In this document: positions 6,229 through 42,506 of the stretch, piece by piece
Position numbering within the stretch: the stretch's first letter is position 1
Layout of the letters: every line of letters begins with the position of its first letter
From: Leucothrix pacifica
GTDB taxonomy: Bacteria > Pseudomonadota > Gammaproteobacteria > Thiotrichales > Thiotrichaceae
Length of the DNA: 64,000 bases
Assembly (NCBI RefSeq): GCF_003172875.1
Contig: NZ_QGKM01000017.1
Span: 1-64,000 of the forward strand
Direction of reading: 5' to 3'
The notes under the pieces: generated by a model
The model's input: only the letters and a program-made list of their open reading frames with translations
Databases searched by the model: none
What the model was told of the DNA's origin: nothing
Made by a program: the position numbers and the translations under genes

Positions 6229-7274
6229 AGCTCGCCCTCCAGCTCACGCTCAATCTCCTCAATACTCGGCAAGCTAGATTTCAAATTATCGGGTAAAGAC
6301 TGTGTCAGCTGATACTCCGTCACACCCAACGGCTTTTGCACATCACTCAACGCATATTCCACAACCGTCTTATCTTTGCTTTTACACAAGAGAATCCCAA
6401 TCGTTGGTTGATCGCCTTCCTGACGAATTTGCTCATCCACTGCTTTAATATAAAAGTTAAGTTTGCCAACATGCTCAGGTTCAAAATCAACCACTTTAAG
6501 CTCAATCACCACGTGGCAATGGAGGCGAGTATGATAAAACAGTAAGTCTAAATAAAAGTCGCGCTCACCAACTTGTATCGCTACTTGCCGCCCCATGTAA
6601 GCGAAGCCAGAGCCAAGTTCTAATAAAAACTGTGTGATGTGTTCGATTAAGCCTTGTTCTAGCTCACGTTCGTTGTAGTCGTTGCGCAGTGTCAGAAAAT
6701 CAAAAATATACGGGTCTTTTAAGGTTTGCTGGGCAAGGTCGGACTGTATCGCGGGTAGTGTTGCGTCAAAGTTCGTTAGTGCGCCACCTTCGCGTTTGTA
6801 CAAACCGCTTTCAATTTGATGAACCAGTACGCTGCGACTCCACCCATGCGAGATGATTTGTGTCACATAATAGTGGGCCTCTTGCTGACTTTTGCACTTA
6901 CTAATGAGCTGAGCATTATGCCCCCAAGGAATACTTGTCAATTGCGCAACAAGCTGTTGCGCAATTGCAGCCTCTTCATGCCAATACAAATACCATTGCC
7001 TAATAACTTCAAGGTTACGCTGTGAAAACCCTTTGATTTCAGGGAACTCAGTCATTAGGTCTTGGCTAAGGCGCTTTAGAAAACCACTTCCCCATTCAGT
7101 ATTTTTCTGGCGCTCCACAATCTGTTCGCCAAGCTGCCAGTAGTATTGAAGCAATGTCTGATTGACCTGAATAGACGCTTGTATCTGTGTCTGTCTGAAC
7201 TCTTGTTTTAATGAGGTTAACCACTTTTTGTATGTTTCATCATTTTGTAAGGCTAAGTCTTTATTGTTAGGCAT
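6225..7274 (-). CDS. YhcG-family PD-(D/E)XK nuclease-domain protein (DUF1016)
   Basis: This 349-residue protein has the DUF1016 N-terminal helical domain (~10-170, with GFSQRNLEVIRQWY near 82-95) and a C-terminal PD-(D/E)XK domain. In the latter, D243 in FYLDLLFYH is followed by E258 and K260 in VVIELKV. YhcG proteins are often encoded within type I restriction operons, and this one lies between hsdM and hsdS with 1- and 4-base overlaps. Its biochemical role is not settled; a structure-specific nuclease or a defence accessory is plausible. All three catalytic-type residues are present and its length is normal. Confidence 0.85.
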   Translation of the reverse strand: MPNNKDLALQNDETYKKWLTSLKQEFRQTQIQASIQVNQTLLQYYWQLGEQIVERQKNTEWGSGFLKRLSQDLMTEFPEIKGFSQRNLEVIRQWYLYWHEEAAIAQQLVAQLTSIPWGHNAQLISKCKSQQEAHYYVTQIISHGWSRSVLVHQIESGLYKREGGALTNFDATLPAIQSDLAQQTLKDPYIFDFLTLRNDYNERELEQGLIEHITQFLLELGSGFAYMGRQVAIQVGERDFYLDLLFYHTRLHCHVVIELKVVDFEPEHVGKLNFYIKAVDEQIRQEGDQPTIGILLCKSKDKTVVEYALSDVQKPLGVTEYQLTQSLPDNLKSSLPSIEEIERELEGEL

Positions 7275-41469: not shown

Positions 41470-41569
41470 AATCAGCCCTCTTCTGGTACAACACCATGTA
41501 CTCCAAATTGCACCTCATGCCGGGAAATAACAGCTTCGATACATCATTTGCGGCACCCAAGGCTGCATG

Positions 41570-41590
41570 GTATTGTTTTTAAAACAATAC
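41570..41590. promoter_or_regulatory. Perfect 21-base palindrome before the PhaE-like gene
   Basis: GTATTGTTTT and AAAACAATAC are exact inverted repeats around a single T, ending 16 bases before the start codon at 41607. It has the size and place of a repressor operator. The cognate regulator is unknown. Confidence 0.5.
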
Positions 41591-41606
41591 TTTGTCGAGG
41601 CAAGCT

Positions 41607-42506
41607 ATGAATTTCAATGATTGGTCTGAAGAAATAAGCAAAAATCTTAAACAAGCTCAGGAGCAATACTGGAAAAATATGGCAGAGTTACACGCCAAAA
41701 TTTCAGGCTCTGCGCCTCCGGAAACACCAAATATGACGGAAGGACTTGAGCGCCTCTGGTCATTAATCAGCCCACAAATGCCTAAGCAAGCCGATGACAT
41801 GATGAAGCAAGTTTTCGGAATGGGTAAAGGTCGGGATCAGTTCGCTGATAATTTCACTGCATGGAAAGATGTGGTTGATTCTTTGGTGGAGTCACAATTG
41901 CACTCATTTGGGATTCCGACCAAAAAGGCTCAGGAAGAGTTGGTAAATCAGGTGGAAGCTTTGACTCTTGAGAATGAAACACTTAAGACACGGATAAAAG
42001 AGCTGGAAGCGGAATTAGCAAAGCAAGACAAAGCAGCTTCTAAAAAAAGTAGTACAGGCACTGGCTCGAAAACCAAGAAAATATCGACACCCGCAAGTGT
42101 GAAAAAAATGCCAAAGTCCAAAGCGAAAGCAAAACCGCTTTCAAAAGCAAAAACCACTAAAGCGCCCTCCTCAACCACGGATACAGCACCACCAAAAAAG
42201 GCAGCAAAAACTACCCCAAAGACAACGCCGAAGACAACCGCCAAAAAGCCTGTCACTAAAAAGCCAGCAAGCACGAAGAAAAGCACTGCAAAGGCAAAAC
42301 CGGATGACTTGAGTCAGGTAAAAGGTATAGGCCCGGTTATTCAAAAGAAACTCATTGCCGCAGGCATTACCAGCTTTGCACAGCTGGCAGCCCTCTCGCC
42401 GGATCAAGCGCAGAAGCTGGATGAACAACTCAATTTACAAGGCCGCATGGCTCGTGAGAACTGGGTCAGTCAAGCTGCAAAACTCGCGACGGGTGATGCC
42501 ACATAA
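41607..42506 (+). CDS. PhaE-like protein with histone-H1-like linker and helix-hairpin-helix end
   Basis: This 299-residue protein is read from ATG 41607, which has GAGG at good spacing; a TTG frame start 15 bases earlier is less likely. Residues ~1-150 resemble the class III PHA synthase subunit PhaE/phasin group (a helical, amphipathic region ending in a coiled coil LTLENETLKTRIKELEAEL). Residues ~155-235 are Lys/Ala/Thr/Pro-rich, like histone H1 or the PhaF tail. Residues ~238-299 contain DLSQVKGIGPVIQKKLIAAGITSF, a helix-hairpin-helix found in nucleic-acid binding domains. It may tie PHA granules to DNA. No phaC is nearby. Confidence 0.6.
   Translation: MNFNDWSEEISKNLKQAQEQYWKNMAELHAKISGSAPPETPNMTEGLERLWSLISPQMPKQADDMMKQVFGMGKGRDQFADNFTAWKDVVDSLVESQLHSFGIPTKKAQEELVNQVEALTLENETLKTRIKELEAELAKQDKAASKKSSTGTGSKTKKISTPASVKKMPKSKAKAKPLSKAKTTKAPSSTTDTAPPKKAAKTTPKTTPKTTAKKPVTKKPASTKKSTAKAKPDDLSQVKGIGPVIQKKLIAAGITSFAQLAALSPDQAQKLDEQLNLQGRMARENWVSQAAKLATGDAT

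Follow-up and report, generated by a model that had tools for sequence, protein, structure and literature searches.

A core-less PhaE protein with a basic linker and a helix-hairpin-helix end in Leucothrix pacifica, a candidate tether between PHA granules and the nucleoid

The analysed 64,000-nucleotide stretch of Leucothrix pacifica DNA (in the following, the window) encodes a protein in which an N-terminal region related to PhaE, a putative leucine-zipper coiled coil, a basic linker and a helix-hairpin-helix (HHH) domain follow one another. In our view it probably derives from a PhaE with an HHH tail (PhaE-HHH), has lost the PhaE core and persists as a tether between PHA granules and the nucleoid. 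The first-pass annotation had already described the N-terminal region, the linker and the HHH end, and this architecture stands; the loss of the PhaE core had been overlooked. The features are as follows.

41548 to 41576, plus strand: putative promoter-like element read by eye, TTGCGG (41548-41553), 17-nt spacer, extended -10 TGG-TATTGT (41568-41576)
41570 to 41590, no strand: perfect 21-bp palindrome GTATTGTTTT-T-AAAACAATAC, from an inverted-repeat scan
41597 to 41600, plus strand: GAGG, likely ribosome-binding site 6 nt before the ATG, read by eye
41607 to 42506, plus strand: coding sequence of the core-less PhaE with basic linker and HHH domain, 299 residues, open-frame translation
41607 to 41861, plus strand: residues 1-85, PhaE N-terminal region, predicted helical, from blastp and alignment with the PhaE-HHH of genome G046
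41862 to 42026, plus strand: residues 86-140, putative leucine-zipper coiled coil, from TIGR01837, the C-terminus of the G042 PhaE and a predicted helix
42027 to 42296, plus strand: residues 141-230, Lys/Ala/Pro/Thr-rich basic linker, predicted disordered, from composition and pLDDT
42297 to 42503, plus strand: residues 231-299, HHH domain with the hairpin KGIGP, from PF14520, NF045508 and a structure model

The frame starts with the ATG at 41607 and its stop codon ends at 42506. An alternative in-frame start, TTG at 41592, would extend the protein to 304 residues; the ATG is preferred because the single ortholog likewise begins with MNFNDWSEEI. This ortholog, in genome G031 (L049:1455-2150), comprises 231 residues and misses 45 further residues near the N-terminus.

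The PhaE-like part proposed earlier is borne out by blastp searches, the E-values of which refer to a small database of ORFs from the fetched loci: residues 1-85 share 41% identity with the PhaE of the sister-genus genome G046 (E 2.6e-20), and residues 1-140 retrieve the G031 ortholog (36%, E 1.6e-21), followed by the PhaE-type proteins of G046, G043 and G040 and by plain PhaE of genus g8 (33-36%, from E 3.8e-10). Among 369 genomes of the class, residues 1-140 reach four genomes besides their own (28-29% identity, E 3.2e-7 to 2.6e-4), and all four places overlap matches to the PhaE model TIGR01834, the one in G077 aligning with residues 37-136; TIGR01834 itself matches in 66 of the 369, most of which are not reached by residues 1-140. 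The score of the window protein against TIGR01834 is 18.3 bits (E 0.0013) and thus below the curated cut-off of 154.95 bits. PF09712 has no match in the own genome, and its control likewise matched nowhere. A comparison of one PhaE with the PDB sequences gave no convincing relative (best E 0.85), and residues 1-85 are modelled with low confidence from the single sequence. These alignments give good support to a PhaE ancestry of the N-terminus, which would have escaped notice with the family model as sole evidence. Matches to the window protein occur in 52 of 63 genomes of the same family, most of those listed being to linker and HHH only, and a scan of named genomes gave one locus, in a Saprospiraceae record, matching query residues 176-297 only.

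The missing core becomes evident in the alignment with PhaE sequences. Residues up to 82 of the window protein align, followed by a single gap at which the G046 protein has 182 residues (83-264) and nine PhaE rows hold 141-191 residues; behind it the window protein resumes with zipper, linker and HHH. The conserved PhaE stretch LRELYDLWV...VYGxxVN is absent from the window protein in this alignment. That the core region does shrink follows from the PhaE-HHH proteins of G040 and G042, members of other genera than that of the window, in which the middle is shortened to 141 and 148 residues and the conserved stretch is kept wholly or mostly. Between the window protein and the G031 ortholog, identity amounts to 56% over the 160 codons of the folded parts with dN = 0.33, the Nei-Gojobori dS not being computable as at saturation; for this one pair, the value would fit constraint on the protein. 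G029 and G030, two genomes of the same genus, both carry a class I PhaC; the window protein finds no match in G030 and a single weak one (E 9e-4) in G029, so that PHA in the genus does not depend on this gene.

The segment behind the gap resembles the C-terminal end of PhaE as well as that of PHA_granule_1 (PhaF/PhaI) proteins. Residues 72-126 match TIGR01837 (PHA_granule_1) with E 5.8e-4, the zipper matches the C-terminus of the G042 PhaE with E 3.9e-4, and a long helix is predicted for residues 105-149 in a single-sequence model. The 90 residues of the linker include 27 Lys, 18 Thr, 14 Ala and 10 Pro and two acidic residues (pI 10.9), in line with the Lys/Ala/Pro-rich linker noted at first sight, and pLDDT is below 50 across most of residues 149-231. 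The full-length single-sequence structure is poor (mean pLDDT 59.3); the HHH domain reaches a mean pLDDT of 76.6. The HHH end recognized in the first reading is found by PF14520 (HHH_5) with 27.3 bits at a cut-off of 27 and by the PhaH model NF045508 with E 2.6e-17, the latter match being confined to residues 195-295.

The kinship of the HHH domain points in the same direction as that of the N-terminus. It shares 58-62% identity with the HHH domains of the G046, G043 and G040 PhaE-HHH proteins (62% with G046 and G043), and in a tree of 35 rows the nearest ones by path, after the ortholog, are the PhaE of G043, G046 and G040. Support is weak for the branch that unites the two window-type rows (78/86) and for the forks beside them; the PhaE rows are not gathered in a single group, those of G018, G104 and G244 standing apart on weak forks. 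The HHH rows of PhaC lie apart in a set of 14 together with nine other rows (100/97).

Five PhaE proteins of the family end in the same HHH domain, those of G046, G043, G040, G042 and G018 (TIGR01834 E 1.8e-52 to 5.6e-30); the G018 protein exceeds the curated TIGR01834 cut-off and the other four lie below it, with nearly the whole model matched in G046 and G043 (E 1e-38 and 1.5e-35). Some of these proteins have a basic linker, and all five genes adjoin a class III PhaC scoring above cut-off. They represent 5 of 26 distinct ORFs found in the family with a home-made PhaE profile, counted from 27 matching rows, two of which are the same G040 ORF; the loci of G028, G001 and G012 gave no ORF with this profile and were left out of the count. 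Outside the family, HHH tails occur in 2 of 40 PhaE, both from one genus (G104, above the PhaE cut-off, and G244). The 40 consist of one ORF each from 40 of the 64 PhaE genomes which remain in the class sample when the two belonging to the family are set aside, and were taken as the 30 best-scoring ones plus 10 chosen among long frames; in one of them, from G386, the contig ends before the C-terminus. Several PhaE outside the family, e.g. that of G074 (L178:1565-3214), have Lys/Arg/Ala-rich tails without HHH. No published name for PhaE-HHH was found in the open-licence literature, where most subscription journals are missing.

Linker-plus-HHH tails are also present on class I PhaC. In the family they were found in 4 of 15 proteins examined (G001, G012, G018 and G009, the last with its start missing at a contig end), which had been picked partly for long frames; second copies and 13 more family genomes, in which PhaC_N is matched at E <= 1e-60, lie outside this count. 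Outside the family the number is 1 of 38 (G206), obtained from 42 PhaC rows after removal of three family members and one repeat, with 107 of the 369 class genomes matching TIGR01838. The proteins of G001, G018 and G206 score above the class I cut-off. The PhaC of the archaeon Haloferax mediterranei bears a disordered tail and an HHH domain, and this domain is stated to be absent from bacterial PhaC in a 2025 article (PMC12028471); the bacterial sequences described here say otherwise.

As to the genome of L. pacifica itself, the phaC which the first-pass annotation recommended looking for is present as a class I PhaC of 708 residues on another contig (TIGR01838, 780 bits), the one PhaC_N match of the genome; TIGR01838 has a second match in this genome. 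Two acetoacetyl-CoA reductases score above cut-off (the family gives sub-threshold matches in 12 of 14 control genomes), and two Phasin_2 proteins are encoded as well. PHA genes (PhaC, reductases, Phasin_2) and PhaE kinship, the lack of which had been named as fatal to the first reading, are hence found. A PhaE is not matched by TIGR01834 in the own genome, the same search finding PhaE in 29 of 63 family genomes, and a class III PhaC was not detected there. With a class I synthase and neither PhaE nor class III PhaC detected, a class III role is not to be expected of the window protein. None of the six neighbours scanned (sensor kinase, response regulator, VWA, SCO1, ABC ATPase and ABC membrane/auxiliary protein) is a PHA gene or, in particular, a class III phaC. 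In G028, of the same genus, a 258-residue PhaE-like protein is followed by a 453-residue ORF with a PhaC_N match (L101:6656-8796), and a Phasin_2 protein is encoded ca. 3 kb away. The own class I PhaC (L001:1192-3318, G000:C99) ends in a lysine-rich Lys/Ala/Pro tail of about 110 residues which weakly resembles the histone H1-like HC2, and the PhaC of G029 and G030 carry similar tails; through this tail the synthase itself may be in touch with DNA.

On this basis we propose the following scenario. The ancestor would have been the PhaE subunit of a class III PHA synthase which already carried a basic linker and, as its tail, an HHH of the PhaH type, a descent well supported by the alignments. 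A deletion presumably removed the PhaE core (residues 83-264 in G046 numbering) including the LRELYDLWV...VYGxxVN stretch, and would have left the N-terminal helical region joined to the C-terminal zipper, the linker and the HHH domain. In the present protein the N-terminal helices might coat or dock on PHA granules, or on PhaC, the zipper might serve for oligomerisation, and the lysine-rich linker together with the HHH domain might, through non-specific contacts with DNA, keep the granule at the nucleoid. We infer granule-nucleoid tethering as the most sensible function. Against this proposal count the six scanned neighbours, none of them a PHA gene, the link between zipper and PhaE, weak when taken alone (E 3.9e-4 at best), the absence of clear matches in G029 and G030, the weak forks of the HHH tree with its scattered PhaE rows, and the ambiguity of the HHH domain discussed below.

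The zipper could instead originate from a PhaF-like phasin, and the whole protein would then be a modular fusion of a PhaE N-terminus with the zipper, linker and HHH of a PhaF/PhaH-like phasin rather than the product of a deletion. The 19.9 bits obtained for residues 72-126 with PHA_granule_1, slightly above the 18.3 bits of the whole protein against PhaE, would suit such an origin; however, the PhaE-HHH proteins are the nearest relatives at both ends, and the G018 PhaE itself matches PHA_granule_1 by its C-terminal part (268-323), which makes a fusion appear rather unlikely. Similarly doubtful is a role as a PhaM-like activator, in which PhaE N-terminus and zipper would bind the class I PhaC to initiate or activate the synthesis of granules on the nucleoid, with tethering as a secondary effect. 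In the class III synthase, PhaE partners PhaC as a subunit (PMC9049629), and activator and synthase, the latter with its lysine-rich tail, could meet on DNA; yet the conserved PhaE core is gone, and no PhaM model is among the NCBIfam matches listed (25 of 37). That the gene is a decaying, functionless remnant of a lost class III system we regard as hardly credible. The lost core, the 45 residues further missing in G031 and the patchy presence in the genus would be expected of decay, but the frame is open, dN is 0.33 in the folded parts (dS not computable), and the conservation of the upstream stretch described below argues for maintenance.

The chief caution on the tether reading concerns the HHH domain, which may be a protein- or RNA-binding module. 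The same module is present on many other ORFs of the family and, in solved complexes, on chains named reaction-centre protein O and complex I subunit, so that an HHH domain is no proof of DNA contact; the C-terminal parts of the NuoE, L21 and S2 models of NCBIfam also match this tail. Of three other HHH proteins inspected in the own genome, two begin with a hydrophobic segment. One of these (L051:5519-8890, G000:C81; 1123 residues) continues with a long Ala/Glu-rich stretch and six HHH domains and could be a membrane-nucleoid link; the other (L053:3827-5572, G000:C35; 581 residues) has two HHH domains, as does the third protein (L052:6669-7319, G000:C122; 216 residues). In G014, a 598-residue ORF with SMC-like stretches ends in the same HHH (L010:1486-3282). 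A Foldseek search with the HHH model gave no match at E <= 0.001; the top row, not significant, is a mitochondrial ribosome protein, and further, equally non-significant rows include RadA, Hel308 and DNA polymerase iota. A granule scaffold joining another HHH-binding partner would accommodate the other HHH carriers and the ribosomal row, but is set against the strongly basic linker, the DNA-related Foldseek rows and the HHH of PhaH, reported as its DNA-binding end in PMC13052382; we judge it distinctly improbable. Core-less PhaE as a granule-nucleoid tether remains our preferred reading.

The region in front of the gene carries the exact 21-base palindrome noted by the first-pass annotation, consisting of two perfect 10-bp arms around one base. 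Two perfect inverted repeats (arms >= 10, spacer <= 3) occur in the window, compared with two altogether in 15 dinucleotide shuffles (mean 0.13), which places the palindrome above background, not at an extreme. The second such repeat, at 6939-6967, has 13-bp arms around three bases (CAATTGCGCAACA / TGTTGCGCAATTG). An RNA hairpin was rejected, as folding was no better than in shuffles (z -0.38). The -10 of the promoter-like element, which the consensus promoter scan did not list, sits inside the left arm; a genuine promoter at this place would have its transcription start within the palindrome, which makes a DNA operator the more plausible interpretation. The same layout is seen in G031 (TTGCGA-17-TGC-TATTGT), both orthologs having, by eye, TTGCG and, 17 bases on, an extended -10 TGnTATTGT. 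The 62 and 66 bases preceding the two orthologs align with a score of 15 versus at most 3 in 2000 single-base shuffles, and are conserved although the neighbouring genes differ. Of the palindrome, 8 of 10 arm pairs are kept in G031 around a 2-base centre, where neither the 3-mismatch pattern search nor the inverted-repeat scan reported it. No further copy within three mismatches exists in the 5.02-Mb genome, which argues against a regulon, and no regulator was identified. The dedicated control suggested by the first reading is thereby weakly supported: the promoter overlap and the kept arm pairs favour it, the uniqueness of the palindrome does not, and an operator over the promoter is possible from the sequence pattern.

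Compared with known systems, the window protein shows the same order of parts as PhaF, PhaM and PhaH, drawn from other sources. According to PMC13052382, all three attach to the granule with their N-terminal end and, non-specifically, to DNA with their C-terminal end, which in PhaH is an HHH domain, and PhaH of Caulobacter crescentus is an HHH phasin distributing granules along the nucleoid; it is attributed to Salinas et al. 2023 as cited there and in PMC12028471. The earlier remark that an HHH end is unusual for phasins is therefore out of date. The window protein and PhaH share the HHH C-terminus after a basic linker and the proposed granule-nucleoid link; the window protein is nevertheless not PhaH, since its tail alone matches the PhaH model, with 63.8 bits against an equivalog cut-off of 250. 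For PhaF, PMC9049629 describes oligomerisation by a leucine zipper and a histone-like tail, and for PhaM a granule-binding N-terminus and a histone-like C-terminus with lysines in PAKKA motifs. A zipper-like stretch recalls PhaF/PhaI; the scores for that family are far below the cut-offs (TIGR01837, 19.9 versus 94.7 bits; PF05597, 14 versus 28.8). With PhaM of Cupriavidus necator the window protein would share a granule-binding N-terminus and does share a lysine-rich C-terminal part, but it differs by the HHH end. PhaF is not known to carry an HHH domain. The PhaE-HHH proteins of the sister genera agree in N-terminal region, zipper, HHH and, in some, the basic linker, and differ by the retained core and the adjacent class III phaC. 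The H. mediterranei PhaC also places a disordered linker and an HHH on a PHA-synthase component, but is an archaeal catalytic subunit, the window protein being without a PhaC part.

An HHH phasin (PhaH) and, in principle, the tether were already known; new are the core-less PhaE and the HHH tails across bacterial PHA-synthase components. How granules are placed and shared out has been established in a handful of model species, each of which uses a different protein. The protein described here suggests a possible origin route for a tether, in which the synthase part is lost from a subunit that carries a DNA-binding-type tail. Since bacterial class I PhaC and class III PhaE can carry HHH tails, synthesis itself may be DNA-anchored. 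More broadly, and with less confidence than for the single protein, we venture that linker-plus-HHH tails might have been grafted in bacteria onto class I PhaC, class III PhaE and core-less PhaE, that polymer synthesis would thereby be anchored to the nucleoid, and that in the lineage of the window a class III subunit might have become a free-standing tether for a class I synthase.
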